A stretch of 64,000 nt of DNA from assembly GCA_002205965.3 (NCBI GenBank), contig NADL03000673.1:1984001-2048000 (forward strand). The letters are read 5' to 3'. Position numbers and translations under genes: made by a program. The notes beneath the pieces were generated by a model, which was given only the letters and a program-made list of their open reading frames with translations, ran no database searches and was not told the DNA's origin. Source of the DNA: Kappaphycus alvarezii. Its lineage: Eukaryota; Rhodophyta; Florideophyceae; Gigartinales; Solieriaceae. Shown here in pieces: positions 3,137 to 62,169 of the stretch (the first letter of the stretch is position 1; each line of letters starts with the position of its first letter).

Positions 3137-3333
3137 TGCGGCCTGACCAGGTCCGGGAGGAGTTTCGCGCCGGTTTTGTTCTTATTTGATTAATACACTT
3201 TCGTGAACTGGCAGGCTGCTGTACTGATATCAGTCAACAAATATTTTTTATTTCAACCAAACAATACTCAGGCGATTTGGCGATATGTAATTTCTCTGAT
3301 GCACCCAGTATACTGCATAGAAAGGAGGTGTTC

Positions 3334-3574
3334 TGTAGTGTGTATAGTGTATCCTACCCTTCCACCGGCGGCCAGTACTGTTAATATGGCACTCGCGGGT
3401 GTGGCCGAATGTTCCATAGTCACACGCCGCGACGCTGACAATAATTAAAAATAACTAAACTACTGCAGAAAATAAAACAAAAAACTCTAGACTTCAGTAG
3501 CTGACAAAACGTAGAAAGCTTGCGAGAAAGCGTTATACAAGTAGTGATGAGGGTAGGTTGTTGGTGACCCTTCA
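3334..3574 (-). repeat. Direct repeat, candidate 3' LTR of Gypsy-1 (left copy)
   Basis: About 241 bp related to 8722-8964, roughly 75-80 percent identical by eye and in the same orientation. Both copies begin TGTAGTG and end CCCTTCA on the plus strand, so they have TG...CA ends. A Gypsy coding remnant on the minus strand lies between them, which makes an LTR pair plausible. Against this, no matching target duplication is visible and homology continues beyond the CA end into a hairpin arm (to about 3591). Confidence 0.45.
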
Positions 3575-3599
3575 GGAGCCACCAACAACACCCCGGCCC

Positions 3600-5640
3600 T
3601 AAATAGAAGCCCGGTGCACCATATAGCATTGACTTGGGGGGTGAGACAGGAACTTATTGTCCCCCTACCTTCATGGTCCCAGCTCCATACCCTCCGCTCC
3701 AAATACTTTTAACGCGTCACTTCGATCCTAGCACTGCCAAACAGCCACATCTAAACATCCCACATTCCCCGCACGCGGTGCCGTCCCGGCTCTTAACGCA
3801 CGTTCATTCAGGGTTTAAAAACGGTACTGCTACATCCGTGTCAGTACAAGCGTGGATTCATACGAATTCGGACCCATCCGAAAAATACCTCCGTAGACCA
3901 CTATGATTGAAAAGACGAACCAAACCGCGAAGAAGTCAAAGGGAGGGAGGCGCCAAATCTTGAGTTGATGGCGAAGGCTGCTCATAAAACTGCGGGCGAA
4001 CCTCTTCAGCGATAAAATACAGCCATCCACGCGAGAAGTATTTCTCCGTACCAACCGTACCGCACCCCGAATATTTCATATTTGATAAGCTCTATGTTAA
4101 GGTGAGTGTACGGAGGGTCGTTGGTTTTTCGAGTGGACCGGACACAATCAAGATATAGAAGTCTAGAGTGCGGGGCGAGTCCCTCCACGACATCCGTTTT
4201 CGAATTTCGTTCGGAGGGTACCAAGAAGGAGATCTCGCGTCGTAATAGGTATCGTACCGGGAGCTTGTTTTCTTTTATGGCTAGAATGTCGCAAATTTTG
4301 CGGCTTCGGAGTAATGTGACGATGGAATGGACAGGTATCTGGCCATTTGACTAAGCTTGACCAAAAGTCTTTCCGATCAGGATGTAATTATCGTAGTTTC
4401 CCTTTTGGGTAATCAACAAGGCAGTTTTGATGGCCCTACATTTTGTCCGTACAGTTCCGCGGGGGATATTACGGCCTTGATGAAGAAACCGATCAAGAAA
4501 ATCCCACCAATCTTTAAACTTTCTCATTCAACGAGATCCCTCCTGGATACGCTGACTATAGTCCGCCGGAGCGCAACTTGACAGAGTTTAAGGAAAATAG
4601 CCTCTTCACTTGTGAGGTCTTTGGTAGGAAACTCAGTTCGAGAGTAGGGTTTATCTTTCAAATCGACCGGTGGTGCCAAAAAACCCGAATCAACATTTCT
4701 GTATTCTATTCCTTATGTAGCGGGCGCCATCATCTTTGTCTTTCCCGCATTTTTTCAAGAGCCATCTCGTGCGTTTCTTAGATTCCGAGGTGCGAAACAT
4801 GCCAGCTACAGTGGCCAACGCGATATCCCTCATCTTCGGGCCCAGTTCGGCGGACCGCTTTTGGAAAACTAACTACGCCCGAGATCAGGATTCCCTGGAA
4901 CAACTTTGCTATCGTCCTAGGTGTCTCTCCTTCGCTGGCGTTCAGAATGGTATGTAGGAAGTCTATCCTGACCTTTTGGTCCTTGAACACATTAGGTCGG
5001 AACGGTGGTCTGCCGGAAGAACCAAAAGTAGCCTTTGCCGAGCAGTGGAATCTTCGATAGACGCTGCATGGGTGCGCAACTTGCCTAGTTCTTCTGCCCG
5101 CGGAATTTACTCTATGTCTGTTATCGGACGACTCGGATTGCAGCATTCAATTTTCCTTCTTGCCAGGGAAGACCCAATTCTTATTTACGACTGAGCCGAG
5201 AAGCACTCTATGCAATTCTCCGAAGCATCCCTCAAGATTTTTTGCGGTGTGGAGAACCCAGATCGTCGATGTGGGCCGTCTAGTTCCATTGAGTGTTCAA
5301 GAGGTCTCGCCTCGTAATATGAGTATTCCATACACGGCGTCGGATCCCGCGAAGAATAAACGTCACCGCTGTCGTTTATGGACCTCGGTAGCCTCTTATT
5401 CTGCATATATGCGGTAAAGGGCGGGTCCTTCCAGTCGTTTGCCGTTTCCTTTGGTGGAAAACCTTTTCTTCTGCTTTCGCGCAGCCTTCTACGTTGCAGC
5501 AAGTTTCACAGAGCTTGATAAAATACGGCGATGAATTCGAATTGTACTCAGATGAATAAATGAGAGAAAAAAACGGACCGGAATACATGGAGCAAATATA
5601 AGACAACTATGGACCATCGTCTATAGGACGGCTTAAGGAT
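3600..5640. other. 2 kb without a recognised gene
   Basis: Several open frames of 70-120 codons exist on both strands (for example minus 4778-5146 and minus 5185-5502), but none shows a motif I recognise. A short plus-strand string GIWPFD near 4338 resembles the C-terminal box of pogo/jerky-type transposases but is isolated. If the flanking repeats are LTRs, this is the decayed 3' interior of Gypsy-1. Confidence 0.4.
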
Positions 5641-6660
5641 TTAATTCTTTAGGAAAAAAGGGCGAAAAGAGTAACGCAACAGACGCCTCGCACGGATAAC
5701 TTGTTGGGAATGACTACCCCTGTGAGAGATTACCCAGTAACGGGGATGAGCTGCTTCCCAAATGCGACACAATTTGATGAATCTGGACTTTAAAGCCGGA
5801 AAATTAGCTGTAGACGTTAAGGCCTTTCCATTTGCGACCAAAACTAAGTCTCCAGTATTGAACATTCGTAGTTGTACCGCACTAACTTCCCTAACAATCC
5901 TCTGCATCTGAGTATCTGCCCTCCTCGCACTAACGCTAAGATAGCCAGCATCTCTAGCCGTAAATGCTCTTCTGAAGTTTTCTGTATCAACGAAGCGGGG
6001 TCGGACGGATCCATGCGCGGTACCACCCCGAAAATGAGTTATAACGTGGAGGCACTGTTCTAAGTAGTCAACAGCTGTAGTGATAAAGAACTTGGGGAAG
6101 CCACTGTTCCCAGTCCGATCCTTGTTCGATCACTATCCTCATAAAATCGACGAGTGTAGCGGCTATAAAACATCCAGCATTGTCAGATATAACTGTGTTC
6201 GGAGGACCAAAAATAAAAATGGTCTCCTTCTCGATAAATGCGGTCACGACTTCTGCGGATGCGGTCTTCATTGAGGTGGCAATTGGCCAGCCCTCAGATG
6301 CTCGACGGCGATAAGAAGGAATTTATGTCCCTCATTTTACCTTGATAAGGGTACAGTGAAGTCTATAGAGTAGGTCTAGAATATACTCTTGAGCAGATTG
6401 CTCCGCGTAGTTTGGTAAGGGATCAATTACTCGACCTTTTGACATCCCTTACTGCTTTTCACATAGTCTTGAACGTCTTGATGTACTTGAGGCCACCAAT
6501 ATCGGTCGATAACGAATTTGTTCGTTTTCTCCCTATCCCAGTGCCCTAATTCGTCGTGGAATGTCTCCAGAATCTCTGGCCTGCCCTTGATTGTCTGTAT
6601 CGCGCGGTGGCAATTCTTTGTACGCCTCATCAGTTTTCCTTCCCATACCATGAAGTATTA
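5641..6660 (-). pseudogene. Gypsy-1 integrase remnant
   Basis: Three minus-strand pieces give integrase in order. At 6651-6427 is the H2C2 zinc-binding domain (FHDELGHWDREKT, then RYWWPQ and a degraded C-C pair where the first Cys is Ser: KSSKGCQ). At 6271-6068 is the catalytic core, with FGPPNTVISDNAGCF holding the second acidic residue, followed by DWEQWLPQVLYHY. At 5907-5641 is the C-terminal region, with FNTGDLVLV and PALKSRF. Each is in a different frame with stops between, so the enzyme is dead. The gene lies downstream of gag and RNase H on the same strand, the Ty3/Gypsy order. Confidence 0.8.
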
Positions 6661-6699
6661 TGCACGCGTTTTATCGAGCGGCGCTTAGACAAATCTTGT

Positions 6700-7420
6700 T
6701 CTTGAATATTTTACCCTTCGATGTAGCGAGTGATATCAACCAAATATGGTTGTATAGCGGGGGTCTCGGACGAGCTCAAAGATTTTACCGCGCCAACAGG
6801 GTCTCCTTCGTCTAAGTTTGGGGACCTCTGAGCTCTTCGTGCACTACGGGTGAAAAAAGTCTGCAGATCCATTCCTTGTGCCCGGACGATATCCCACCTC
6901 AAAATGCTATTTAGCAAGAAAGTCTAGCCATCAGGCCAATCTTCCGTGGACTTCTCTCTTCTTAAAGACTTATTGAGGGGCCTGATTGTAAGTTAGGAGT
7001 TTGAAGGGCTTCGCTGAAAGAAAATACAATCAGAAATTTCTAAGTGCGAAGATGACTGATGAGCTTCCCTTTCGGACGCATAATAGTCCAGCTTGACCGC
7101 TTGATTCCAAAATGTGGTGGGAACCTTGACCAAGGAGCCAACACAGGGGGCGTTATCTCCATTAGCGACGGTTCTTCTCTTCGATGTGTAGCTCGGCTAC
7201 ATGTAGAGGGTTCTATATAACTCAGTAGGGATTACGTCCGGTATGGCTTCATAGTCCCAAGACGCCCACATTTCCGTGATATTAATCTTGATCTGCACTA
7301 ATCACAGCAAGCGTGATCATTTATCAGCCACGACGGCAATTCTTGCATATTATTATTTCCTAAAAACCTTCGCATTACCTTCGCGGCTTCTTCAGTATCC
7401 ACTCTAAGAAGCTGGCTGTA
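6700..7420 (-). pseudogene. Gypsy-1 RNase H and protease-region remnants, RT missing
   Basis: Minus-strand translation around 6990-6850 reads as Gypsy RNase H (EVHGRLA, WLDFLAK and YRPGTRNGSADFF), with stops at positions normally occupied by conserved residues. Around 7460-7310 the sequence reads KYDVVFELGNANCGLKYSQL and continues LLRVDTEEAAKVMRRFLG. That type of segment precedes the protease in related elements. Only about 200 bases separate these two blocks, too few for a reverse transcriptase, so the RT has been deleted. Confidence 0.6.
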
Positions 7421-7732
7421 CTTGAGCCCGCAGTTGGCATTCCCGAGCTCAAAGACAACGTCGTACTTTCCGACGTATTCTTGAAGCTTGTTTGAACCCT
7501 TCGTTCCTCTTCTTTAGTTCTTCCGGTTCATCCTTCGGCCCGAAACACAGGTTATTCTGTCGGTGGAACGGGAAGTATTATCCTTACTTTATTCGTACCA
7601 TGCACTAGACGAGATACCGGGATTCAACCGTAATCTTCTCGACGAGGATATTACGGCAAAGCTTCTTCTTCAGCTGTTCTCTTCATCGCGTTGAAAATCT
7701 CCTCGAATTCTTGATCGGTATCCTAGTTACTT

Positions 7733-8615
7733 TCACGAAAACCTTTGACCTGATCCGCTACTCGAAGTTTTTTTCCTTTCTTGATCTTCCGAAGCACCGG
7801 AAGCCTTGTTTTTCGCCGCAATCCATCCGGTAGCCTCAGAATGCCCCAATCGGCCGTAAAGGGTGCAGCGATGATCGCGTTGTAGGTTCTTCTCATCCAC
7901 ATGCTCCATGACTATGTTTAAGAAAATAGGAGCACAATATAGGAGCATTTCTTCTCTGAGCTGACGAAGTTGGTCCTGCGAATGTATCGGAATTTGCCTT
8001 CTTCTGCTTTACGAGAAGGATAAGGCGAGACAGATCTTCACCAATGACATCCATATTATCCTCAATGTTTTTAAAGCGGGCGTTGGGACGAACTAATAGT
8101 CTTGCTGGAGTCATTTCATTAACTTGAGACGAGGATCCGGAAAACGTAATTCGATTCACGTAAACGTCCTTCAAAGCCTTCACTAGATCGGCGTAATTCT
8201 TCGGCCCTCGGAATAAAGTAAACTGCTGCAACTTCTCATGTCGACATGCGGCAGTCCTAAGTAACCCGAATCTGGCAACAATGTCGAAACCATACTTCTT
8301 GTACAACCGCTCCGATGTCTTCAAGAATTTCGCTATGTCTGAAATCTCGAGGCCGATTTCGAATGCTTGGCGGAGGATGTCTTGAATCTCTTCTTCCTTG
8401 GCGAAATGTTGGAAGAACTTCTCCTTAAAAAGGACGTATTTTCTGGCATCTTCGATCAGCTTTCCCTGAGTTGCGAAGTAATCGTAGTAGAAGCTGAACG
8501 CGGTGCTTTCTACGTTTCCGAGGAGGGATACTGCCTTCTCCTCACTGAACTTCTGGGCCATCAAAACATTTTCGTAGAAGAAGAAGAGCTTCTTCACATA
8601 GCTTTTCCCATTTAA
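7733..8615 (-). pseudogene. Gypsy-1 Gag
   Basis: A 234-residue frame (8597-7893) begins at a GTG, but the coding sequence reads in frame from further upstream (NGKSYVKKL), and an internal ATG occurs at the MAQKF position. It has the all-helical look of a Ty3/Gypsy capsid (FSEEKAVSLLGNVESTAFSF, then VLFKEKFFQHF). After a frame change it meets a degraded zinc knuckle at 7860-7800 (HRCTLYGRLGHSEATGW), in which the CCHC pattern has lost cysteines. It is the 5' gene of the minus-strand element and starts about 100 bp inside the right-hand candidate LTR. Gag packages the element RNA. Confidence 0.7.
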
Positions 8616-8721
8616 AGCTAAATGCTTCGCTCCGGAGAAAGAGGTCCTCCATAAAAGTAACCTAATAGGGTCGGAAATTGAAAAATTGAAAGGTTAGTGA
8701 CTCTAGGAGAGGGAAGGGTTC

Positions 8722-8964
8722 TGTAGTGCGTGCTTTGTGTCCTCCGCCCGCCACCGATGGCCAGCGCTGTTTCTATGGCACTCGAGGGAGTGGCTGAAAG
8801 TTCCAGAGCCACACGCCGCGAGGCCGATAATAATTGAAAAATAACTAAAATACTGTACAATATAATACAAAGTAAGTATATATTACAGCAGCTGACAAAC
8901 GTATAAAGCTTGAGAAAAGGCGTTATACAAGTAGCGAAAAGGGTAGATTTTTGGTGACCCTTCA
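8722..8964 (-). repeat. Direct repeat, candidate 5' LTR of Gypsy-1 (right copy)
   Basis: About 243 bp matching 3334-3574 with TG...CA ends, placed just upstream of gag for a minus-strand element. The two copies are diverged, which would make this an old insertion. No standard tRNA primer site is apparent next to the inner end. Confidence 0.45.
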
Positions 8965-8995
8965 AGGGGCACCCAAAATCTACCCTTTTCGTTAC
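8931..8995. repeat. Near-perfect 31 bp inverted repeat with 3-base loop
   Basis: Bases 8931-8961 are almost the reverse complement of 8965-8995 (core GGGTAGATTTT against AAAATCTACCC), separated by TCA. A shorter, partly conserved version of the hairpin occurs at about 3552-3591 beside the related repeat. Confidence 0.8.
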
Positions 8996-18780: not shown

Positions 18781-18949
18781 TCACGACCAGAATTCCGGGC
18801 AGTGTTACTCGTATTCTGGATGACCTAGTGTCGATTCGTCTCATGTGCAGTGAATTATAAAAGTACTGCGTGTGTGTGACATGGCCATTAATGCTACTGT
18901 ATACACATCCAAAGAAGTCAATGGTTCAATTTCCTCTTAAGATCTCTGT

Positions 18950-19208
18950 TGAAACAACAGAGGAAAATGGTCTTTACTCCATCTGAAAACCGATCCCTCC
19001 AATCCTCTATTCATGCCATCTCCTTCATCCATTCAAGCCATAAATGCTGCAATGACCTATCACCTCACGCCCCTTCATCCGTTCAAGTACTGTCGACAGT
19101 GACATTAGAAACAGATAAATTCACAATCATCTGGATGTGGGGCGTCCGAACCCAGTGGCTGCAACCTGCTAGCATTAGACGAGGTCAATGGTCACTAAAC
19201 CTGTTTCA
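18950..19208 (-). repeat. 3' LTR of the NTPase element
   Basis: 259 bp, begins TGAAACAACAGAGG and ends CCTGTTTCA on the plus strand. It is identical to 21711-21969 except for three substitutions. The sequence just inside it shows only a weak purine bias on the minus strand, so the polypurine tract is not convincing. Confidence 0.9.
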
Positions 19209-19380
19209 CCATAGGCACCTCACATCAATTGACGTCCGCGTCAATTCATTCTCACACCAAAAAAAGGCACAGTCTCATTTCTACTCGAGGGCATCACATT
19301 CCCACATCCTGTCGAGACCGAGTGCAAATCCAAAACGTCGTTAACATATCCTTGTTCGTTACTACACCACCGGGGAGCGC

Positions 19381-21214
19381 TCAACGCAGGCCTCCTGCAA
19401 CCTGTTTCTCCAATTCACTAAGGAGTACCTGCGTTCGATCAATGCGATCCAACAGCTCTCCAATTGCAGACATCTCAGAGACGTTCACCACCCTCAGAAT
19501 CACTCGCGCACCCAAAAGGTTTAACGCGGCTGTCGGGTCGCGTAACGTTGGCTCTGTGTTACCATTGGTTAGGATGGTAAGCACAGGGTTGCTGTGCCTT
19601 ACAATGCTTTGGATGTCACCAGAAGAATTGTTCGCCACTAATACCCTTTCCAGATTATCAAGGAATCTTCTCGCTCCGTCTTCGTCAACTTTCACTGTTT
19701 TGACGCCCTTCCCAATGGACTTAGCGTTGTACCAAGTTGTGCAACCTGTGGCAAAATCAATAAACGGAAAGTTGCCCGCAGCTGGGCGATACACTCGAAG
19801 CTCGTTCCGGTCCATTGAAGCGATTCTTTGGTACGCAGTGTCATGATTACCCTCTGAAACGTACTGAACTTCTGCTTTTCTCCCCTCAGTCTCACAAAGC
19901 CAGTCAAAAGCAAAGTCCTCAAAGCTTTCCGTCCTCAATGCAATAATGCTTTTCTCCAGACGGTCACGAAGAACCAGAGTCGCAATGGGTGTCAGCTGGA
20001 ATGTGGGACGCTGCATCCTTCGTTCTTTCCATGTGTGGTGGTTCACTGTCTTTGGATTCAAAAGTAAAAGTCTTGACGAAGCGGAAGCAGGATGCTTCGC
20101 GAGGAATGTTGAGTACTTTCCACGCAATGCCTTGTACAGATCGAAATCAGAAACTTTTTCTCCCGCCTCAGCAGCGCCTTGTACGTGCTCACCGACTGCA
20201 TCTAAAAACAGTCCCGAGTCAAATACAAGACGAGGAATAGCTCCAACGAGCTCAATTCTTTTCTCGACTTCGCTCATCTTCTGTTCCATCGTATTTAGTT
20301 CACCGATCTGCCATGGGTGCGGAAACTTCTCATCGTCCCACAGAACTCTCGTCATAGCTAGGACCTCTTCTTCCGTAGGCATCGACGTCACTAGTAGAGT
20401 GCCGTCTTTTTCCCAGTTCCGAAAATGCTTTTCCGCATTGTTTGAAACAAACTTGAGAACTCGGCACTAGCACGGCACTCTTGCGGTAAAGAAGAGCCTG
20501 CATGGCATACATCATGGAGCCTCTGGTCTTGCCGATGCCTGGTTGACCCGTAACTGCAACCCTAAAACGATTCTGCAATGCGTCCAGTGCATTGCGCGCG
20601 CAACTCCGACTTTCTTCACGAGTGATGGTAGCTGTCTTACCTTCTAGCCCATCAATATCAAGTGCTTGTACACCGTATTGCACGTAAACACCATGTCCAA
20701 GATGTTCTACGCGGACGTTTTCCCTTTGAGCGACGTATACTTCATATTTGGCGGCCAAAGTATCTTGAAGTTCAGTATGCAGTTCCACGAGCTCTTCCGC
20801 AAGCAAATCCAGTTCTTTTTGCCTATCCCACTCCACTTTGTCCAAGACTTCTTCGTCTCTCAAAAACTTGCGGGAAACGTCCACCCCAGCGCCCTCGAAA
20901 GCTGGGAGTTTTCCCACGGTTACCCGTGATTCACGAAGAGTCTCATTCGTGTGATGTAATTCTCGGCACAACCACGCGCGATATGAGCACGGCATTTCAA
21001 TAGTGGGCGATGCAGGGAATATGCGGCGTAGCCCATCGCGATGAAAGGGCGAGCGCGACGACGTTAGGAAGACCGCGGACGCCCGTGCAATGAAGGCGAC
21101 CAGCATGATGGAGATAACGTTCACCTTGGTGGTTTGGGCCGTTTCCATGGCGCAGATAAAAAAAATCTCGAAGTCATCGCATTGCAATGTGCACAAAACA
21201 ATTTTTGCATCCAT
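19381..21214 (-). pseudogene. P-loop NTPase of the Crinkler-RHS (CR) type, one frameshift
   Basis: Transcribed right to left from an ATG at 21212-21214. The first frame (294 codons, to 20330) has a helical, charged middle section and a Walker A motif TGQPGIGKTRG at about residues 221-231. The second frame (stop at 19381-19383) overlaps it by over 60 bases and continues the protein. It contains WQIGELNTMEQ and VGAIPRLVFDS, the latter resembling the conserved G-G-x-PR-hydrophobic box after the ATPase core in Crinkler and trypanosome RHS proteins. The C-terminal part has FPFIDFATGC then YNAKS, possibly a divergent nuclease-like D...xxK arrangement. A single-base indel near 20455-20470 links the frames, so this copy is broken or the sequence has an error. 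The frame at 21614-21270 may be leader. CR proteins are NTPase-plus-effector proteins spread by transposons; the role here is unknown. Confidence 0.7.
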
Positions 21215-21700
21215 TCCAAGCCGGTCACAGGCTTGGCCAATACGATTTCAAATGGTATCTCGGAGCAAATCAAAGTTCTCCGCCATTCTTCTCAACAGCC
21301 CTGCCACTGCTATTCGGCAGTTCATCTCTTGCTGGGCTTATGCGCCCCTGTCTGGTCCTTGCAAACCACAGACAGCGTTTAACCGTAGCTTCCACGTTCT
21401 CCGAGCCTCTTACCCGGAGCCGAGCTTTCAACGTAGCCCTCACGTCTATGCGAACTTGAGCCTCCCGCTCAGCGCAAGGCTTTGCAAGGTAGCCTCCACT
21501 TGTGTTGTGCGCCCGAGCAGCGAGAGATAACCCTTCAATACGAGCGCTATCACAGACGCCGAAATACAATCTAAATTGGCACTCAAGTTTCGGCAGACCA
21601 TACTCGTTTTGCATGCCGCGCGTCCCATATCACGCAGCACGGACCGGTCCTGGACTTTTCCTCCCAATCGACAACCTCTCATTCCCCGAGACTTGTTGCG

Positions 21701-21709
21701 ATGCTACCA
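21701..21709 (-). promoter_or_regulatory. Candidate primer-binding site
   Basis: On the minus strand, one base inside the 5' LTR, the sequence TGGTAGCAT appears. Many LTR elements start their primer site with TGG, complementary to tRNA CCA ends, and TGGTAGC is shared with initiator-Met-type sites. The match is short, so the tRNA is not assigned. Confidence 0.5.
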
Positions 21710-21710
21710 G

Positions 21711-21969
21711 TGAAACAACAGAGGAACATGGTCTTTACTCCATCTGAAAACCGATCCCTCCAATCCTCTATTCATGCCATCTCCTTCATCCATTCAAGCC
21801 TTAAATGCTGCAATGACCTATCACCTCACGCCCCTTCATCCGTTCAAGTACTGTCGACAGTGACATTAGAAACAGATAAATTCACAATCATCTGGATGTG
21901 GGGCGTCCGAACCCAGTGGCTGCAACCTGCTAGCATTAGACGAGGTCAATGGTCACTGAACCTGTTTCA
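21711..21969 (-). repeat. 5' LTR of the NTPase element
   Basis: 259 bp copy with TG...CA ends, followed on the plus strand by the TCTGT target duplication. For a minus-strand element it would hold the promoter. No clear TATA element was singled out. Confidence 0.9.
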
Positions 21970-22052
21970 TCTGTAGAATTACTTTACCACAGCCATATGC
22001 AGGTACAACATGCAAAGTCTTGAATACCCCACTGTAACAAACCTAAAAACAA

Positions 22053-22983
22053 TTAGGTCTGAATAGGGTGCCTAAACTCTGCATGTTGTGGGGCGCGACA
22101 AAATACAGACGCGGCACACGTGGACCAATTCGCAGAACTACGCTGCTGATAAAGCCGAGTCTTCACTCCTCCCGCAGAATATTCGCTGCGGGTTGCGACA
22201 GCGGCCGCGTATTCGTCGATTACCTTCGGCGTCGTCGCAGACGGCGATCCAAGTGGGTCGAAGGCTGGCGGCACAAACTTCCATCTCAGTTTTGATCGTC
22301 CTGGGAGGGTTTCACCGGGATGGCTGCTACTTTGCTGGCAAGCACCCTATTTTTCCTTCTTTCAGCTGCATTGGCAGCGGCGCGCGCCTCACGCGCTTCA
22401 ATGGACATGAACCCTCTTGGAATGGCGATGTTACAGTGACGTCGTACGCCACCGGGAGGGGCGGCAGGGTGTTGATCTCCTCCGACCTCGGGTGCACTAG
22501 AATGTCGCAAGGCCGTGCATTCAGTCCAGGAAGTAAGCATTTCACCTCATATTGGACGCCGACTCCTGCTGCTTTGAACATTTGTCGGCCAAATACCTTC
22601 ACCACGGCATTGTGCCGGTTAGTCTATCCCAGGCCTTTTTTGCAAAAATCCGCGGCATGGTTACCTTGGTCCATGGGCCTGTTGCACTCCGCGCATTGCA
22701 GCGGCACGGTGTCGTCAAACACGTGAACTCCCAGGTGGCGGCGTAGCATCACTGACCACATCTTATTATAGGTCCGGCTGACCGCAGAAGGATGTGCAGT
22801 GAGAAAGGCTGCAGCAGGCGTCTCTAAGTATGCCTTGCGGCGGATCCTTCGCCGAATATCAGCTTCCGTATGCAGCGTAGTACTTGGGAACCTCTCCCAT
22901 TCGTCTTCTTTCCAGAATACCTTTGCTGCCGACTTGCACCAGGCTCGATAAAATACTGTGTGTAATATCGGGCTTGTTTGCAA
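22053..22983 (-). pseudogene. Non-LTR retrotransposon copy 2: zinc cluster and restriction-like endonuclease
   Basis: The minus strand from about 22983 reads HPSAVSRTYNKMWSVMLRRH, then QCAECNRPMDQGNHAADFCK, a CCHC-like cluster. After a frame change comes RPCDILVHP with, about ten residues on, VAYDVTVTSPF, equivalent to RKLDLVI...GIDFTIVSP in copy 1. ARAAANAAERRKNRVLASK follows in a third frame, then FDPLGSPS and KTRLYQQ up to the stop at 22053. The order zinc cluster, PD-(D/E)XK-like nuclease and tail box matches copy 1. Such an endonuclease nicks target DNA to prime reverse transcription. At least two frame changes make it inactive. Confidence 0.7.
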
Positions 22984-24738
22984 GATTGGCCGCTGTCAGC
23001 GTTTCTGGGAGACCACCATGTCCGTCAGAGAAGATTGGGTGGAGTCGTCGGACAAACTCGAGAAGGTGGGTATCAGCATGTGCATAGCTTTGTGCACGGT
23101 GGTGGGCTACGCTAGGATCATCGGGGCATGTCACTTGTTCGGAGTCGATGACGCTGGCCGCAAACGACGCTAGATTCAGCGTTGCCACGGGTGTGAATCC
23201 GTGGTCTCCGAGGCGCAACGGAAGAGCCACTTGCTGACGGACCGCACTTGTCATCGGCACGTTGTTTGACCGCGAGTAATATTCCATCTGTTCTTGATAA
23301 AATCTCACTGCCAGGACGCTTGTTGCACTCGGCGGTGTTTGCTTCATCACATGGCAGCCTGCATGCCGAGGCACAAACGCGGTGGAGGTGGAACTGGATG
23401 CGAGCATCCCCAATCCCATCGATCAGCGATAACGTGTTTTTGCATCCTGCAGCGATAACGTGTTTTTGCATCCTGCAATTTTTTCATTGAGAAAGTTCCC
23501 CATGAATTGCGGCGAACCGATCGGAGCGCCGAGGAAGTCAATGCCGTGATTTGAGAAGTTCTCATTTGGAAAGCGGTGCAGTAGGGGTGTCTCAGTGGCA
23601 GGGTGGCGCGGCCAGAATAGGCGTGTCTTCGCCGGGTTTAGATGCAGGCCATGATCAGGTCCCTTAGACCTCAGGATCTCGACAGCCTTGTCGAGCTCAC
23701 TGTGATTGCCTACCAGGGTGCAGTCATCCGCATACCATCTGTGTAAATGGAGTTGGGTCTGATCGGAAATTTCTCTTGCCAATGGGTGTATGACAAGGGA
23801 GAACATCAACATACTTGCTGGGTCCCCTTGTTGCATCCCTTCTTGGCTGGGGATGTCTTGTGTCGATGCCGCAGGCAAGATTAGGGACGGCATTTGACGG
23901 GCATACACCATGTTCAGGAAACGGCATAACGACGGCACTTTGGTCGGCAGGAGGTCGATCATTTTCTGTCTCGAAAAGCGGTTGAACGCATTATGTGCAT
24001 CCACTGAAATCAGCGCGTAGTCCTCATCTTCACCTTTGGTGGAGACCAGTCTTCGGGCATCGTGTACGATAGAATCCAGTCCGCAGTGCACTCCGTTGGC
24101 CACCTGTAGTGGAGCGAGGTATTCCCTCGTGTCTTCCAATGCCTGGGGTAAGAGCACTTTCGTCACCAGTCGCCGCAAGGCTGTCCCAATTGCAATGGGG
24201 CGGATCTTGTCTGGGCGGGGTTGGATCGGCAACAGTGTCACAGAGGAGAAGGGGGATTGTCTTATTTGGGAGGTCTCCATGAGCTAGTCTCGACACAACA
24301 GCTGTTAGTACCGAGATACCCGTCACCGCAGCTTCAGGGCTAACCCGTGTGTTGGCCAGCAGGTGCAGGAGTCGCGGTGACATTCTGTCAGGGCCAGGTG
24401 CGGAGTTAGAGTTCAGGCGTCGGACCGCGCTTAGAACCGTTTCCTCCGAAATGTCCACCGGGAGCGGCAAGTCTCTCGCCTCTATGGCTCTCACCGGAGA
24501 CTGCGGTGCTGGGTGCAGTTTTCGCAGGCTTTCGATGACTTGCGGGTCACGCACGTTAGCAATGTGCGACTGGTGCAGGGTGCGCATTGCACGCCCATAT
24601 TGCGCATCTGCAGCAAGATGGGCTGCCCTGCGGAATTTTGCTCCGCGCATTGCGTCGTTCTGTTAAGGACGGGGTCGGACTACTCGTTCTTCTTTGACGT
24701 GGTGTGCTTGAATCGCCTCTGTCCACAAATCGGGCCAT
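22984..24738 (-). pseudogene. Non-LTR retrotransposon copy 2: reverse transcriptase
   Basis: The best-preserved RT in the window. The 24650-24030 frame has NSNSAPGPDRMSPRLLHLL, the fingers entry motif. After a frame change near 24260, the 24280-23423 frame has RPDKIRPIAIGTALRRLVTK, ALISVDAHNAFNRF (first catalytic Asp), QEGMQQGDPASMLMFSLV and the YADD active site in HRWYADDCTLVGN. Then a 26 bp tandem duplication shifts the frame, and another frame change falls near 23345. The 23419-22859 frame resumes with LPLRLGDHGFTP, the counterpart of LPFRSGGLGLTQ in copy 1. All RT catalytic residues are present but the protein cannot be read through. An N-terminal Arg/Ser-rich frame reaches 24738. Confidence 0.8.
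23425..23476. repeat. 26 bp perfect tandem duplication inside RT gene
   Basis: Bases 23425-23450 and 23451-23476 are identical. Because 26 is not a multiple of three the duplication shifts the frame just after NEKIAGCKNTLSL and causes a stop 8 codons later. It looks like a recent slippage or repair event. Confidence 0.9.
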
Positions 24739-24749
24739 TCACCTGCAGA

Positions 24750-25640
24750 AGCGCGGCGTTTTCGCTCGCGGAGTACTTGGCTTTGTCTTGTCTTGGATTG
24801 CCACCCGGCTTCCTCCCGCACTAACCGTCGTAAGACTGCAGTGGGAAGTAGGTGAATCCGGAGGAAGGCAGAGTGTCCCAGATATGGTCAGGAAGCTTCA
24901 GTGTGCATCGACACGCATCAGCTTTGTTTTGCATTGGATGACTCCGGGTCGAGAGCAGCAGTCTCGATCGTAGGACAAATTTGATTACTTTATGAGTTGA
25001 AGGGATGCGTGACCATGGTGCTCGCACTTCGCCTAATGTAGAGCAGACAGTGTGCCGGCGTGCAGCGCAACTGTTGCATGAGCCATGGAAGTAGTCGGTG
25101 GTGACGGACCATGTTCTTGTGCACATGTTCAGCCAATTATTTGACAGTGAACATGATATCAGGTCTTGTGATGTCTCTGCACGTGGCCGACGTGGACCAC
25201 CCGGTTAGCACTTAGCTAGCAGTATAGTCGGATCCTGCAGCGGACACCCGTTTTACGGATGCCATAAAGTTACTCTCTGTCTGCCAGATATCTTAAGTCA
25301 CCGATAACCCTTTGAAAATGTTTCCCTTGGAGTTTCTGGAGGGTTAGGTATGTTGGTGCTGCGTTCCAATCTCTATTTTCAGAAGAAGGGGTGTGACGCG
25401 GTTTGGATTGGTGGGTTCTGGTTGTGTGGAGTAGGAATAGTATGACGTGGGGTGGAGTTGATGCGCCACTTGAGGTATACGATTGGCTTTCGTAAATCTT
25501 ACATCTTGTACTGGATCGTGATTATTCAGTAGAAGTCATCGCTGAGGGCGTTGCGCGGAATTAATGGTATAAACTCTTCAATGCTGACTGCCACGAGAAT
25601 GAGAATGCCGTCCACTTGTTTAATGAGGAGGCAGGGATCA
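24750..25640. other. No supported gene
   Basis: Probable 5' flank or 5' untranslated part of non-LTR copy 2, then mixed sequence. A stretch CTGCACGTGGCCGACGTGG near 25178 recurs in diverged form near 46043. No motif-bearing frame was found. Confidence 0.35.
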
Positions 25641-25643
25641 GCG

Positions 25644-26120
25644 TCACTCTACTTGCGGCCGTGCTTTGTAGGTTGTTTTAAGAAGGCCTTGAAATGCATA
25701 TTGATGCCGCAGGTATACCGTTGAGGTTTCGAAGTGGGATTTCAGTGCAGCGAGAATGACTGAGTCTGCCACCGAATCTCGTTGGTCTCGGATAAAGACG
25801 TGATTTTGGTCCGGGTAAGGGTCGTGCGGACAAGCCGAACTGACGGCGAAGTGGTTTATGGGGCAGAAATGGTGCGTTGCTAGTGTGACTAGTAGCCGCA
25901 CAGTTGAATTTTCTGCCGTGTGCACAGGTGTGTAGCCCGAAAAATAGTAGATGTATTGTTGCATACGGTCTCCAAGTACGGAGCATCGAGACTTCCGGTC
26001 GAAATGGAGGAATAGCAAGCACTTATAGCAGGAGGATATCTTTAGTGGTATAAATTTCAGGGAGGTTCGTGGCGTTGCATGGTTGAGTATGAGGTGCCAT
26101 TTAATTGTGTCTGTGCCCAA
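25644..26120 (-). CDS. Unidentified 158-codon open frame
   Basis: Open from 26120 to 25644, with overlapping frames on the same strand. The translation has several Cys and His (SSCYKC, HHFCPINHF) but no family I can name. It lies upstream of a fragment of the non-LTR family and may be decayed element sequence. The apparent start is not supported by any signal. Confidence 0.2.
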   Translation of the reverse strand: MGTDTIKWHLILNHATPRTSLKFIPLKISSCYKCLLFLHFDRKSRCSVLGDRMQQYIYYFSGYTPVHTAENSTVRLLVTLATHHFCPINHFAVSSACPHDPYPDQNHVFIRDQRDSVADSVILAALKSHFETSTVYLRHQYAFQGLLKTTYKARPQVE

Positions 26121-26247
26121 TCGGGTGTGTAGCTAGGGGATAAATGGGATTGCTCGGGTTGTCGTTTCTGAATTATGCTGCTAAGGCGGAGCAGAGAAGA
26201 GCGCTGCTGTGGAGTTACAGTGGTGTTCTGAGGAGTACGTTGTTAAA

Positions 26248-26535
26248 ATGGCTGGGGTGTTGCGTGATTGTTTTATATGTGGACGAACTCGCGGGTCTAA
26301 CAGTCCTGGATTTGCGTTTATGTCAGATGAATGCATCAACTGTGCGGGGTCCGCAGTGGTCCTAGGGGGTGATCGAGGTCTGGTATTTAGCCCCAATGTC
26401 GTCACCTCAATTTTCCTATTGGTAATACCTTTGGCTGTCCTTTCTAGTAGGTGTACTATTCCTTTATCACTGGTGTACAGTACAAATGTGCAACGTTGCA
26501 GAGTACTTAAAATGAAGTTGGAGTTGGGTGACTAA
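26248..26535 (+). CDS. Small open frame with Cys-pair motif
   Basis: From the ATG at 26248 the frame reads MAGVLRDCFICGRTRG and then SDECINCAG, two CxxC pairs spaced like a zinc ribbon, followed by a hydrophobic segment near its end. It stops at 26535. It overlaps the antisense end of a non-LTR fragment only at its 3' side. No family recognised; could be chance or an element-encoded fragment. Confidence 0.2.
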   Translation: MAGVLRDCFICGRTRGSNSPGFAFMSDECINCAGSAVVLGGDRGLVFSPNVVTSIFLLVIPLAVLSSRCTIPLSLVYSTNVQRCRVLKMKLELGD

Positions 26536-26640
26536 GCTCTGCGTGTTGCGGTGCGCGGCAAATTACGGATGCTGCACAAGTTGAACAGATTGAGTAGCTA
26601 AGCTTCTGATACAGGCGAGTCTTCACTCCTCCAGTTAGAG
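26515..26640 (-). pseudogene. Non-LTR retrotransposon copy 3, C-terminal tail
   Basis: The minus strand reads GGVKTRLYQKLSYSICSTCA, continuing ASVICRAPQHAELSHP. Copy 2 (22190-22060) reads GGVKTRLYQQRSSANWSTCA, then ASVFCRAPQHAEFRHP. Nucleotide similarity between 26525-26640 and 22069-22180 is also clear. The rest of this copy upstream is not confidently readable. Confidence 0.65.
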
Positions 26641-28265: not shown

Positions 28266-31200
28266 ATGCCTACCCGCCTTCTCGTCGGCTGGGGTAGCGC
28301 CACCGATGGCCAACTCGGTCCTACGGACACAGACCTCATCCCAACCCCACGTCCATTTCCAGGACTTCCTTCGTCAAACTCCGTGACATTTTGTGCTGGC
28401 CTCTGGACATCTCTTATCGTAACTCATAACGGTGCTGCCGTACATTCTACCGCCTCCTTCTCAAACCATATTTCCACTCCCGCCCAAGCACTCGCTCTCA
28501 TCCCTGGTACAGGCCCCCGCCGGATCCCTCCTCCCTCCCTGCTGTCACTTCCGTCGCTGTTGGTCGAGACTTTGCACTGCTTCTTACCGTTCATGGCACC
28601 ATCTATTCTATCGGTGGCGGCAGCTTTGGCCAGCTTGGCCTCGGTAAGGGAGTCAAGAACCTTACATTTCCGGAGCGAGTTCATGCCTTGAACAGCTTTC
28701 GCATCGTCCAAATTGTCGCAGCAGAATTTCATTGGCTTGCCTTGGATTCTTTAGGTCGTGTCTTTGCTTGTGGAAAAAACGGTGCGGGCCAGCTTGGTTT
28801 GGCTAATGTCAAGTCCGTGAATGTCCCTACCTGTATCACCACCCTTTGGCCACATGCTGTGGTCGCCATCTCTACAGGGGACATGCATTCTGTTGTACTC
28901 ACCGCTGGTGGTGAGCTTTTGGCATTTGGCAGCAACAAGAGCGGCCAACTTGGTAACTCTGATTACCGCGTACAAGTCCGTTCCATGACACCAGTCATTG
29001 TACCAATGCCGTCAAAGGCCAGGGATCCTGACGGTGATGTGCACATGGATGAAACGGGCTCTTCAAGTGAAGAGCCTGGGCCCTGGGGTTATCATGATGT
29101 GGCGTGTGGCTCGGCACATACCGTTGCCCTACGGAGTGACGGCGCCCTAGTGTGTTGGGGAAAGGGAGAAAACGGTCAGCTGGGGACCAGGGCCACTCAG
29201 ACTTTGTACACGCCCACAATTGCTGTCACTACTGAGCAGTTTGTTTGTGTGGACGCCGGCGAGCAGCATTCTGCGGCTTTGACTGAGCAAGGAGTCGTAT
29301 ATCTTTGGGGAGATGGCAGTCAGGGACAAATTGGGGACGGGGATGTCTCAGATAAGTTCTTGCCAGTGGCAGTCCCTGCTATTAGAATTAATTCTCGCTA
29401 CTTTGCAAGCCAGGGGCAAGCCGGTACAGGGACAGACGGGAACGCTGCAAGGGAATTCCGGGTCCTCAAAGTTGCTTGTGGTGGATACCACAACTTAGCA
29501 CTTGTGAGTGACGATCCCCACGACCGCGTATATCGAGCAAGGGATGTTTACAGCAATCGTATTCCCAAATGTCTTGTAGATGAAATGCTGCAAGCAAAGT
29601 CAGGCCTCTCGCGGTTCGGGTCTGCGCAGGTAATGTTGAGAACATTTGTCCGACCGCATTTACCTTTGCGAAGAAACGGGAAAGTGGACTACCGAGAGGC
29701 AGAGAAAGCCTACGATGCATTTGTGCGACTTTTTGGAGATGAAGGGAAACGAGTCCTGGGGTTAGCTGCAGCGCGTATAAGACACGAAGCTCAAGTTGCT
29801 TTTGGCTTAGTTGTCTCTCGAGATGGTCCGTTTCCATTCAAGACAGATTTTACCGCAGATGACCAGAAGCAGCTTGTGACACCGAGAGCAGATTTTCTCA
29901 ACGATGACAATTTCTTCCGTTCCTCAGTTGCAAACTTTTCCGAATGCGGATACCTTTTTTTCTTGTCTATTCTAAACCCCGTGTATACTGAGAAAGAGCG
30001 GATACCACAGCTTGCAGAGCTGGCTAATGTTTTGCTCCGCTGCGAAGAGCAAGGCAGAGAAGCGTTTATCGATTCGGTTTCTCACTGTCCGGCAGATTTG
30101 CTGATTGAGCGGCTTATCCGACCGCTCCAAGTTGTCTTGGCAGAGGAGCTGAGGGGATACCAACGGGTAAGAAAGAATGCAAAAGATGCAACGATGGCAT
30201 TAGCGTTATGTTACCACGGCGTGTATCGAGCATCCCGACGCGAAAAAGTCAAGGGACTTATTATTCCACACACCGAGTTTTACAATGAGACTGTTAGCGA
30301 GCGTATGGATCTGGGACAAGACTATAAGCGGTGGTCAACATCGACGGGAGGTGGACTATCAACCGTACTCTCAGCCCTACCGCCGCTACCCTCGGCAGAC
30401 CAAGATGAAGAGCTTTTTTCCTTTTGCACGTACAGCTTTCTTTTGACGGAAGCTGCGAAATTCCAAATATTGGAGGTTGAGTCCACCCTAACAATGAATG
30501 AGGAGAGCATGCGATCGGTGCTATCATTTGGCTCTCTTTCTCTAAGCTTCGGGCCACTGGGACGTCTACCGCAATTGCGAGTGCCACCAGAACAATTGGC
30601 GACCTTACAATATCTTGTTTTAAATGTTCGGAGGGACAATATTGTGTCGGATGCATTCCTACATATTGCGGAACTGGCTCAAAACCACCCGCGCGAACTT
30701 CACAAGCCTCTGAAGGTTATATTCGACGGAGAAGATGGTGTAGATGAGGGAGGAGTACGCAAGGAATTTTACCAAGTTTTGATGGAGCAAATTTTATCTC
30801 CAGATTACGGTATGTTTGAGTATGATGAGGAAACAAGGTATCACTGGTTCCGTCGAGATTCTTTAGAGACAGAGAACTCGTGGGTCCTTGTGGGCATAAT
30901 GTTTGGGCTAGCTGCATTCAATTCCATCCTTCTCGATGTTCAATTTCCATCAGTATTCTATAGGAAGCTGCTCGTGGCTTTACGAAACAACCTAAAGAAG
31001 ACACACGCACCGGAGGGTGTGGTCCCTAGTGTCGAGAGGTACGAGGCCGATTTAGATGATGTCACTGAAACATTCCCACAGCATGGCAATAGTCTGGCAC
31101 ACCTAATGGCATACGAGAATGACGATATCGAGGAAATCTTTTCCTTATCTTTTGAAGTTTCATACACAGGCTTATTCGGCAAGGCACAAACAGAGGAGTT

Positions 31201-31735
31201 AATACCAAACGGTTCGAAAATGCCGGTCACGAACAGGAACCGTGAAGAGTTTAAGGACCTTTATGTTGAATATATGATCAATAAGTCCATCGAAAAGCCC
31301 TTTAATCACTTCGCACTAGGGTTTTCTCTTATGTTGAATGGACCATTCGTCCATCGTTTCAATGCTGAGGAGCTCGAGACATTGCTAGTAGGAGAGAAGG
31401 AACTTGACTTTGAGGCAATGCGTCATGTTGCCAAATATGAGGGTTACACGCCAAACAGTCCCGTAGTGCGGCACCTGTGGCAAGTTCTGTCCGAGTTTGA
31501 CGCTGAGTTGAAACGACTCTTTCTGTCTTTTGTGACAGGAACAGATAGGGCTCCAATAGGCGGGCTGCGCAGACTTGTTTTACTAATTCAAAGGGCTGAA
31601 GGTGACAGCAATCGTCTTCCAACAAGCCACACATGTTTCAACGTCCTCCTATTGCCGGAGTACGCTACACGTGCAAAACTCCGGGATCGGCTTTGCACTG
31701 CAATCCGAAATTCAAAAGGCTTCGGATTGAGGTAG
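28266..31735 (+). CDS. HERC-like E3 ubiquitin ligase (RCC1 repeats plus HECT), one probable frameshift
   Basis: The ATG at 28266 opens a frame starting MPTRLLVGWGSATDGQLG, an RCC1 blade. Near 28510-28525, at a run of five C, the reading must move by one base. The main frame then runs open to the TAG at 31733-31735. RCC1-type blades follow (SIGGGSFGQLGLG, VFACGKNGAGQLG, LLAFGSNKSGQLGN, LVCWGKGENGQLG, VYLWGDGSQGQIG), about six or seven in all. The C-terminal 350 residues are a HECT domain: FDGEDGVDEGGVRKEFYQVL, then NHFALGFSLMLNGPFVHRFN, and the catalytic loop LPTSHTCFNVLLLPEY with the active cysteine at 31634-31636. Length, about 1,156 residues if the shift is bridged, is close to animal HERC3/HERC4. 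The protein would transfer ubiquitin from an E2 through the cysteine. No introns are visible. The best-preserved host gene here; the frameshift may be a sequence error, since the rest is intact. Confidence 0.9.
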
Positions 31736-49341: not shown

Positions 49342-51047
49342 ATGTTTAGACCACTCAAAAGAATGGAAGAGCCGTATAGAGTAGGTCTGTGTCTCGCAGG
49401 AGCTGCAACTGGAGGAGCTTATTCTGCTGGAGTAATGGACTTCTTCCTCGAAGCAATGGATAGCTGGCAGCGAGAAAAAGACTCTGGAAACGAAAATGTG
49501 CCAGGATGGTCTGTTGAGATAACGGAAATGATTGGAACTTCAGCGGGTGGAATAACAGCAACCCTCGCTGCATCATCTCTAAACAAGAACCACAAACCAC
49601 TCCCTCGAAGCTATAGACTAGGTGATGATGACCCTAAAAATAACGCGTTGTTCTCAACATGGGTGAAAGAAATGAATTGCGAGAGGCTTCTGAGCAATGA
49701 TGACATACTTTCAATGCCATTGGGCGAAAGAGAAGTTCAATCATTCCTCAACGCCAATTTCATGGAAAATGTCTCATTGGAGGTCTTGGAAAGAGGAAAC
49801 ATTTGTGATAAGGCCCAGTATGGGCTAAGAATATCCACTTGGGTCTTACTGCAACAAATTTGAGAGGCATTCCTTACTCAATTGATGGTTTTCACTCCGC
49901 CAATAATGACACCTCTTTTTTCATGAGAAGATACAAAGATTACTCGGAATTTATTGTTACTGATGATATTGACTCCATTAATCCTTCTGAGAGACTTGAA
50001 GTAAATTTGATTGACATGCGCAAATCCAGGAAAAGTTCTGATTGGAAAAGAGCAATTGATTCATCAAGAGCAACGGCCGCATTTCCTATGGGATTTCCAA
50101 CGGTAAGTATTGAAACACCGAAAGAGCACTATGAAAATCGTTTAAATACTCCTCCGAGTTGGGATGGAAGCATAACAAACAAAAAATCGAAAGAAAGTGC
50201 AGAGAGTGAAAACTTGTATAGATACTCCGCAGTTGATGGCGGTGCTCTTGACAATGAGCCTTTTGAACTTTTGGAAAAGAACATGCAGAGTCGCAGTGGA
50301 AAAGAACTACGTTCATCAGGCTCACAAACTTGGGGCTCTATTATTCTTATAGATCCTTTTCCTGACAAATATCAGGACTCGAAGATTGAGGAAGGTAATC
50401 TTCCAATCCAAGAAATGGTACCAGCATTACTGAATGCTGTTATGGGACAAGCTAAATTTAAAGAAGATGAACTTCGAAATGCGGTATCACCGAACAACAT
50501 GGAGAAGTTTATAATTAAACCCCAGAGAGAGAACAAAAAGCCGAATCAAAAATACACACTTGCGACGGGAAATCTGCAATCGTTTGGTGGAATAATTGAC
50601 GAGAAAATAAGACTACATGACTTCCTTTTGGGAAGAAAAAACTGCAAACATTTTCTAGAGAATGCATTTGTACTGAAAAGAGAAGATGCATTGAGAAATC
50701 CAATTTTCAATGCGCATGAAGAACATTTAAAAGGAGAAATTATCCCAATTATCCCTGTAGTTGGCAGTGCAGCAGAGGAAATTGAGGACCCGAAATGGCC
50801 ATCTTACACGAATTCCGAAAGTATGAAAGTCGTAGACCATCTAATGGGGTATATGGATGAAAGAGTTCCTCTTATCATAGAAACAGCAATGTATGGTATG
50901 AAGCTCATAAAGCCGGTTAAAATTTTCGAAAATCCCCTCCAGTGGCCAATGAATCATATGATGGAAGTGTTTAAAAATATTTTGAGCAAACGAGCCAGTG
51001 AAAAATTAAGGAAGGTTATTGAAGAGTCTATGAAAGTGTACAAGTGA
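49342..51047 (+). CDS. Patatin-like phospholipase, bacterial type, one frameshift
   Basis: The first frame (49342-49863) begins with the oxyanion region GLCLAGAATGGAYSAGVMDF and the nucleophile motif MIGTSAGGI, the catalytic Ser at codon 49540-49542. A change of frame near 49815-49840 leads into the second frame (to 51047), which reads GLTATNLRGIPYSID. It then has SSRATAAFPMGFP and the dyad motif YSAVDGGALDNEP, with the catalytic Asp at 50235-50237. Together about 565 residues, the length of a bacterial patatin subfamily with a long C-terminal extension. Family members hydrolyse acyl chains from lipids with a Ser-Asp dyad. All catalytic residues are present, but the single frame change means a pseudogene, a sequence error or, less likely, an intron. 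No neighbours in operon-like array. The sole coding gene in a very AT-rich tract. Confidence 0.75.
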
Positions 51048-54687: not shown

Positions 54688-55270
54688 ACCTATAGCTATT
54701 CAGAGGCCGGGGATAAGTCTTACATCAGAAATAAATAATCAGAAAAGCCAATTCAGAGAGGGGAAGTATCATTGGCGCTCAGTAAAATATAACTACATTC
54801 TACCGAATCTGAACCTTTTTATTTTACTGTACAAATATTTTCCTGCAATTTGGGAGCAGGGATTTTCGTGAGCATTTCCCCGTCCAATAATGTTTCTGGA
54901 TCAATTCGGTAAAAAATATTATGATACACCTGCGTTTGTACGCGGTTCTACCGGGACACAATTATGAGCGCTCGAAAAGTGTCGAGATGTGGGGGGGAAT
55001 GCTGATTGGACGGGGACAGCACCACGAGCTAAGGGGTGAATGCTTATTCTAGGTGGCCAGGAACTCACATTTTGGCATAATTACGGCCTATATCGGGGGT
55101 AATTCCGGGAACATCGGTGGCAATTACGGGTACATTGGGGGGTAAATTCGAAGAGCACTTGAACTTGTGCGAATATGCACAGCACGTAGATAGGTCTACC
55201 AGTTTATGCATAGGAGAAATGTTTTACTCGCATATCTGCGTGGCAGATTCTTGGGGACATTATTAGGTTA
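54688..55270 (+). repeat. Dispersed repeat R-A, copy 1
   Basis: About 580 bp clearly similar to 62170-62715 in the same orientation. Shared landmarks in order are GAGGCCGGGG(G)TAAGTC, a TGGCGCTCAG block, TACTGTACAAATATTTTCCT, ATGATACACCTGCGTTT, GGGGGAATGCTGATTGGACG, several TCGGGGGTAA words, a small GC hairpin near 55160-55180 and a final CGTGGCAG block. No coding content. The copy is more degraded than copy 2. Confidence 0.85.
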
Positions 55271-55274
55271 TTTT

Positions 55275-57925: not shown

Positions 57926-57929
57926 GATA

Positions 57930-58950: not shown

Positions 58951-58956
58951 ACTATT

Positions 58957-61900: not shown

Positions 61901-62150
61901 GAACACTTTTGATGTTAGTAAGAAATCAATATATTTATCTATCCGAGGATGGGTTATGTGTCGTTCACTGTAACGGCGCTCAAACGTCTGTCGTCTATAT
62001 AGAACCTCAATGAACCGCCATGTTTCTGTACCAACAATACGAGCGCCGCCCCTCCCACCGCGTGGGTTCGATGACCCCTGGCTTGAGCATCTTTTGAGCT
62101 TCAAGTTCTTCAATTTCTGTGGCCTTCGGCCCTGCTCAATTTGGCGCTTG
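58957..62150 (-). pseudogene. Gypsy-3: RT, RNase H and integrase remnant
   Basis: The RT begins near 62130 (ATEIEELEAQKMLKPGVIEP), followed by PRIDKYIDFLLTSKVFPALD. At 61813-61589 it reads MPFGLTNAQTTFQRALDILL, then SCLSYLSDVIIFS, where YLDD has become YLSD. RNase H follows at about 61380-61050 (EPFKLRPFQPEKKEAFYKLK, then PGLPYHIETNASVKQLGVML). The linker is at 60804-60511. The integrase core is at 60292-59733: NRYILVITDCYKNLVRSVPL, then HHWVFIYGPT, and in another frame NRKILTALRYYVAGHQKYWD. A charged tail runs to 58957 (KKKKISKKSTRRVTRNQTKL). The 5' side is cut by repeat R-A copy 2 at about 62160. Inactive through the active-site change and many frame breaks. Confidence 0.8.
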
Positions 62151-62169
62151 TGTGATTGGTCATTTCCCT

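Follow-up and report, generated by a model that had tools for sequence, protein, structure and literature searches.

Non-autonomous long terminal repeat (LTR) retrotransposons of the LARD and TRIM type are well known, as are forms that carry a gene, such as maize Bs1, and LTR elements typically have TG...CA ends and make target duplications of 5 bp. In trypanosomes, the retrotransposon hot spot (RHS) genes serve as insertion targets of non-LTR elements. RHS genes and those of the Crinkler (CR) proteins form large families known for an association with transposons. Here, we describe a unit from a 64,000-nucleotide stretch of the genome of the florideophyte red alga Kappaphycus alvarezii (contig NADL03000673.1, positions 1,984,001 to 2,048,000; hereafter the window), where two LTRs enclose an RHS-like P-loop NTPase gene, and we consider it very probable that this unit belongs to a lineage of non-autonomous LTR retrotransposons, each with one such gene replacing gag-pol. 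For the CR proteins, section 11 of PMC5289972 treats how they were named and how they are linked to transposons, including a hypothesis that invokes helitrons and one CRN gene that contains a gypsy insertion; that section does not mention carriage of a CR gene by an LTR element. The nearest analogue that we found is the NLR genes of pepper, for which PMC5664825 reports copying by LTR retrotransposons, mostly in a lineage-specific manner. Among publications judged by their titles and the openings of their abstracts, we found none describing an LTR element that carries an RHS or Crinkler gene.

The red-algal units resemble LARD, TRIM and Bs1 elements in having LTRs, target site duplications (TSDs) and a primer-site-like sequence without a gag-pol of their own, with help in trans presumed, but they differ in keeping one gene family over three LTR subfamilies, in sense orientation and with signs of purifying selection, which is not the picture of a one-off capture. 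With trypanosome RHS genes they share the P-loop family PF07999, as assigned by Pfam, and a multigene, mosaic character; the trypanosome genes, however, are targets, whereas the algal gene is itself carried within an LTR unit. The likeness to the Crinklers of oomycetes and fungi lies in an NTPase with a possible REase-like domain C-terminal to it and in a linkage to transposons, but here the host is a red alga, the gene is carried directly by LTRs rather than lying in the neighbourhood of transposons, and the LxLFLAK motif was found in none of 25 homologues of the algal gene, several of which are fragments without an N-terminus. As in pepper, LTR elements multiply a family of genes for NTPase-bearing proteins, but in the red alga, an element lineage persists together with its gene.

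The unit in the window is bounded by two LTRs of 259 bp, which run from TG to CA and differ at three positions, and is flanked by the 5-bp duplication TCTGT, all of which agrees with what had been proposed from the letters of the window by an earlier inspection (the sequence-only reading; see Table 1 for coordinates). The TGG-type primer site that it described, TGGTAGCATCGC, is likewise present; it reads on the minus strand, is separated from the right-hand repeat by a single base, and is the sole match in the window at no more than one mismatch, compared with 0.09 expected by chance. Since the NTPase gene is on the minus strand, we take this as the sense strand of the element, and the RHS-like gene lies in sense orientation between TGGTAGCATCGC and the downstream LTR. 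Both NTPase motifs that had been named, GQPGIGKT and VGAIPRLVF, were recovered, but the gene is not intact and occupies two frames. That an NTPase stands here instead of gag-pol was borne out, in that the six other frames in the window unit between the LTRs (85-215 amino acids) had no Pfam match, and neither did two other frames in the related unit C474; for the remaining units, the lack of gag-pol was judged from the frame listing alone. Our analysis confirms the presence of an LTR-bounded unit with an NTPase gene.

Table 1. Features of the LTR unit in the window, with further sites of its pre-LTR motif in other stretches
Feature	Position	Strand	Basis or content
TSD, left copy, TCTGT	18945-18949	no strand	direct sequence reading
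3′ LTR (gene's sense), 259 bp, TGAAACA...TGTTTCA	18950-19208	minus	repeat comparison and genome matches
Stretch directly 5′ of the 3′ LTR in sense	19209-19244	minus	weakly G-rich GATGTGAGGTGCCTATGG plus motif
Pre-3′-LTR motif TTGACGCGGACGTCAA, also given as TTGACGnGGACGTCAA	19229-19244	minus	scan of RHS-unit loci
Second open frame of RHS-like gene: distal NTPase part, VGAIPRLVF, C-terminal domain FED...FPFIDF...WYNAK	19381-20466	minus	frames and Pfam
First open frame of RHS-like gene: N-terminal part and Walker A GQPGIGKT	20330-21247	minus	frames and Pfam
Leader, primer site to first open frame	21248-21697	minus	
Primer-binding-site-like TGGTAGCATCGC	21698-21709	minus	window scan and genome-wide 22-mer search
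5′ LTR (gene's sense), 259 bp	21711-21969	minus	repeat comparison
TSD, right copy, TCTGT	21970-21974	no strand	direct sequence reading
Further sites of TTGACGnGGACGTCAA	L036 3754; L018 5002		

We searched the genome (336 Mb in 884 contigs) with the window LTR and obtained 40 scored matches among 128 candidates; the two LTRs of the window are included in the 40, as are some partial matches. Stretches examined comprised 25 around LTR matches and four around RHS genes or junctions (L035-L038), plus others. A scripted TSD check covered ten insertions with differing flanks, namely the seven full units window, C474, C446, C455, C588, C585 and C500 and the three solo LTRs C64, C678 and C695, and demonstrated agreement at all five bases in seven insertions and at four of five in the other three; in total, 47 of 50 TSD bases agreed, compared with 13 of 50 in a control where both flanks were shifted 10 bp outward. 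The TSD is perfect for the solo LTRs C64 and C695 and has four of five bases in agreement for C678. A further solo LTR, C21 (L025), has GTCTC on both sides and a TA end, and was bounded by eye only, outside the scripted count. Also outside this count are the LTRs of C665, C595 and C635 (82-87% alike), with ends that are unclear or partial, and those of C697, C63, C589, C860, C11 and the arrays, which are partial or located within arrays. Since each of the ten insertions has its own flanks and a separate TSD, they represent independent insertions.

One segmental duplication is ruled out by these separate TSDs, and a chance pair of repeats by the 40 scored LTR matches in the genome. The sequence-only reading had named three outcomes that would count against it, i.e., no second LTR copy, a protein from an unrelated family, or a segmental duplication without independent insertions; what we found were further LTR copies with differing TSDs, relatives in the RHS family, and insertions that occurred separately. 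Its interpretation, that of an LTR element carrying an RHS-type gene, is supported.

Three LTR subfamilies flank the RHS-like gene at the same place and with a common primer site, which has one base changed in C588. With gaps uncounted, the LTRs of C588 are 17-19% distant from the window type, and those of C585 and C500 are 37-40% distant. The number of differences between the 5′ and 3′ LTRs of one element is 3/259 in the window, 3/259 in C474, 1/258 in C446, 2/259 in C455, 3/246 in C588, 17/271 in C585 and 2/271 in C500, and the C500 pair is closer than C500 is to C585 (22-26/271).

A genome search with a relative of the window gene, P0004, returned at least 79 matches, which we merged into 57 loci; the search scored 71 of 349 candidates, and the number of matches is hence a lower bound. 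Using the 51 places in the genome where the junction of LTR end and primer site occurs with at most one mismatch, we observe that 29 of the 57 RHS-like loci have this junction upstream on the same strand. Stop-to-stop frames are open in C474 (673 amino acids), C588 (653) and C500 (567), and the gene is interrupted in C446, C455, C585 and the window copy; a further locus, C598, contains an open frame of 638 amino acids and a 3′ LTR. Head-to-tail units with common LTRs are present on C312, C523, C467, C204, C588, C589 and C860. By pairwise comparison, these genes are modular: C588 and C598 are 98.6% identical in the C-terminus and 48% in the N-terminus, and C312 and C204 are 98-99% identical in the NTPase and C-terminus and 55% in the N-terminus. 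In the array units of L009-L019, unit positions ~1415-1884, i.e., the part of the gene around and after Walker A, are sharply variable with many indels, and the remainder is mostly 99-100% identical. Gene conversion is one possible source of this segment, and another is collapse of the repeats during assembly, with errors in the consensus; in view of the latter, we claim no diversifying selection. Comparison of C474 with a C312 array unit demonstrated that dS is also raised in the variable segment, suggesting import of segments as opposed to point selection.

Over the whole frame, dN/dS ranged from 0.19 to 0.45 (Nei-Gojobori; 15 pairs among six open frames), where two of the frames are array units, one (C598) is without a 5′ LTR, and some C-terminal dS values are saturated. 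Idle cargo would be expected to decay, and we therefore think that the RHS-like protein has probably benefited either the alga or the element.

The window copy is, as judged by alignment with its relatives, a frame-broken, chimeric member of this family. Its RHS-like gene is split over two overlapping stop-to-stop frames, and it is broken in that ~173 bp of the relatives' sequence is absent at ~20470, where the frame is lost. This copy is a mosaic, with LTRs of the type shared by the window, C474, C446 and C455 (A-type), a C588-like part from 21669 to ~20670, a part nearest to a C312 array unit at 20669-20470, and a C474-like part at 20469-19209. The recent movement proposed in the sequence-only reading had the 3/259 LTR differences as its sole basis; this count stands, but, since the copy is recombinant, its LTR divergence is no clean clock.

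Its motifs and Pfam matches class the gene product as an RHS-type (PF07999) P-loop NTPase. The RHS-type assignment had been proposed for checking by HHpred, and our search with Pfam hmmscan upheld it for five relatives, with scores above the RHSP (PF07999) cut-off of 25 bits (P0001, 31.2; P0004, 27.6; P0013, 35.2; P0014, 30.1; and C588 (L018), 26.2 bits), but not for the window piece, which falls below this cut-off (22.4 bits, E 9.4e-5). The more distant homologues P0018 (16.1 bits) and P0020 (21.6 bits) are also below it, and in the same Pfam scan of 10 proteins P0017, P0019 and P0021 had no RHSP match. The Walker A, Walker B and GxxPR box of Crinkler-RHS proteins are present, and the 10 long homologues have in common the invariant positions G180, G183, G185, K186 and T187 (Walker A), IDPPE, R334, G339, R343, F346, E447 and D501, together with the nearly invariant N511 and A512. 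An FE...D..NA(K/N) pattern occurs in 14 of 25 homologues, two of which (P0007 and P0018) have one end out of register, and several of the 11 homologues without it are fragments. The pattern of E447, D501 and N511-A512 would fit a PD-(D/E)xK nuclease, and an REase-like C-terminus is a plausible possibility; three C-terminal pieces had no Pfam match, and a comparison of the RHS-like protein with solved structures gave no convincing match. Homologues of this protein include one from Gracilariopsis chorda (Florideophyceae) and two transcript-derived EukProt proteins (P0003 and P0009, with TRINITY names), with the pelagophyte Chrysophaeum taylorii represented among the distant ones, and searches of viral and genome contig sets seeded by exact peptide patterns confirmed no homologue of P0004.

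The junction beside the RHS genes, also written TGTTTCACTGGTAGCATCGC, was sought as the 22-mer TGTTTCACTGGTAGCATCGCAA, made up of the LTR end, one base and the primer site. This 22-mer has 427 matches genome-wide at up to three mismatches, compared with two for the pattern read backwards. Outside the RHS loci, we examined the junction places C77, C642, C721 and C784. C77 has 20 of the 22 bases and a Ty3_capsid match (E 1.9e-10), C642 has all 22 and a reverse transcriptase (RT) piece that matches the solved RTs 4ol8 (E 4e-11) and 7q5b (Ty3 Gag-Pol, E 1.9e-10), and C721 proved to be a truncated RHS unit that is C500-like (90%). The LTR pair of C642 is 95.3% alike, and its 5′ LTR ends in TGTTTCA. 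In addition, all 16 RHS-unit loci that we scanned, among them the window copy, have the motif TTGACGnGGACGTCAA, which is also present exactly in C642, where it likewise precedes the 3′ LTR, and with one mismatch in C77. This motif, common to the Ty3-type element and the RHS units, could fold into a hairpin that has a stem of 6 bp and a loop of 4 bases.

The sequence-only reading had looked to an autonomous relative, and C642 and C77 provide this in part. These Ty3/Gypsy-type loci are like the RHS units in the LTR end TGTTTCA, the primer site TGGTAGCATCGC and the motif before the 3′ LTR, but they are decayed, they contain gag or RT remnants, and they differ in LTR body, LTR start (TGTAACA) and leader. 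The RHS-carrying units are probably mobilised in trans, whereby Ty3-type elements would supply the gag-pol for packaging, reverse transcription and integration of the RNA of a unit; since only short sites are shared, this role of a Ty3-type lineage is one that we infer.

What we observe are LTR-gene-LTR units of three subfamilies at differing sites with 5-bp TSDs, solo LTRs, arrays, and short cis sites in common with Ty3/Gypsy-type elements. Several findings weigh against reading these units as a retrotransposon lineage served by such elements. The A-type LTRs differ at 1-3 positions within and 2-6 positions between elements, and this overlap means that the contrast between the two is clear for C588 and for C500 versus C585 only. 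Among the 57 RHS-like loci, 28 lack a junction among the 51 places used above, their junctions having perhaps diverged or been lost, and the 5′ LTR of C598 was not found within the stretch examined. The open frames compared for selection are recombinant, so that the dN/dS pairs are not independent. As regards the presumed partners, the RT pieces of C642 and C77 have no Pfam match, the 3′ LTR of C642 ends in CGTTTCG, the LTR body of C77 gave nothing above chance in comparison with the RHS units, and the LTR bodies and leaders of both loci are unlike those of the RHS units, with the likeness of C642 limited to short sites; what links the units to a partner is therefore a set of short sites in common with two elements that are themselves decayed. 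The candidate polypurine tract beside the 3′ LTR is weak, being a short stretch that is weakly G-rich. We also sought a primer tRNA with the 3′ end GCGATGCTACCA, which would fit TGGTAGCATCGC, and no tRNA end does so among 33 genes read (63 scored out of 11601 candidates), the longest run being five bases including CCA. Several tRNA genes have an encoded CCA, by which some contigs may be bacterial contaminants.

The weak polypurine tract and the lack of a primer tRNA among the genes read would also be expected of a tandem host gene family whose spacers resemble LTRs by chance, with single units scattered at the DNA level (e.g., by re-insertion of circular array units), and the many head-to-tail copies with near-identical spacers would suit such a family. 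We regard this explanation as improbable, given the precise TG...CA ends and 5-bp TSDs at single units and solo copies, and given that the LTR end and primer site occur together at 427 places against two in the control, and at two loci are accompanied by gag or RT remnants. A composite DNA transposon, where the 259-bp repeat is a small element with inverted termini (TGAAACA/TGTTTCA) and two copies bracket the gene, has in its favour that the termini form an inverted repeat of 7 bp and that solo copies have separate TSDs, but we consider it very improbable: complete units agree in their internal junctions, where a single base separates the LTR from a primer-site-like sequence, the 22-mer TGTTTCACTGGTAGCATCGCAA is common to these units and Ty3-type elements, and LTR elements typically combine 5-bp TSDs and TG...CA ends.

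The explanation that we prefer remains a lineage of non-autonomous LTR retrotransposons, where arrays would arise via LTR-LTR recombination, chimeric genes via template switching or gene conversion, and the protein would be an ATP-dependent nuclease whose substrates are nucleic acids within the algal cell. We raise only tentatively the idea that this protein is a working part of the element, i.e., a selfish ATP-dependent nuclease selected for aiding spread or for competing with other elements. It is also conceivable, if rather doubtful, that the host benefits, with the LTR vehicle spreading an intracellular defence gene (an anti-transposon or anti-virus nuclease), similar to the retroduplicated NLR genes of plants; this concerns function, and is compatible with the LTR-retrotransposon explanation. 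Purifying selection (dN/dS 0.19-0.45 in 15 pairs), modular recombination, and relatives in transcript-derived sets (P0003 and P0009) would agree with a benefit to the host, but many copies are broken, as seen from in-frame stops in many of the P0004 genome matches, and selection might equally serve the element.

Our analysis also identified other features in the window. Next to the RHS unit, a separate RT element occupies 22066-26632 on the minus strand, with an RVT_1 match at 23423-24283 (E 1.4e-17) and a 107-bp repeat pair (77.6%) that may mark its ends; in L014, L016, L020, L022 and L025, similar RT-like pieces were noted by eye in the vicinity of RHS units, of solo LTRs and of array ends. 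A 260-bp direct repeat pair (79%) within 3324-8973, with starts ~5.4 kb apart, perhaps represents an old LTR element, and encloses a 266-amino-acid frame that is gag-like by eye and has no Pfam match. Another direct repeat pair, of ~435 bp and 82% alike, is located at 54689-62599. An open frame of 1101 amino acids at 28430-31735 encodes a HERC-type ubiquitin ligase, as seen from its RCC1 repeats and HECT domain (E 4.1e-83), and a frame of 411 amino acids at 49812-51047 has a sub-threshold patatin-like phospholipase match (E 0.0092).

This one genome displays units that are both gene and LTR element, as insertions, solo LTRs, arrays and chimeras, and a route by which such genes spread becomes directly testable here. 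These units would provide one direct way for RHS/Crinkler-related genes to spread, multiply and recombine, and they do so in an alga, where a role in host infection is not the default. If the protein is indeed an element-encoded nuclease, the RHS/Crinkler gene would be the transposon's own, a relationship beyond mere proximity to transposons, and LTR-driven copying, arrays and recombination would explain the multiplication and diversification of this class of effectors.

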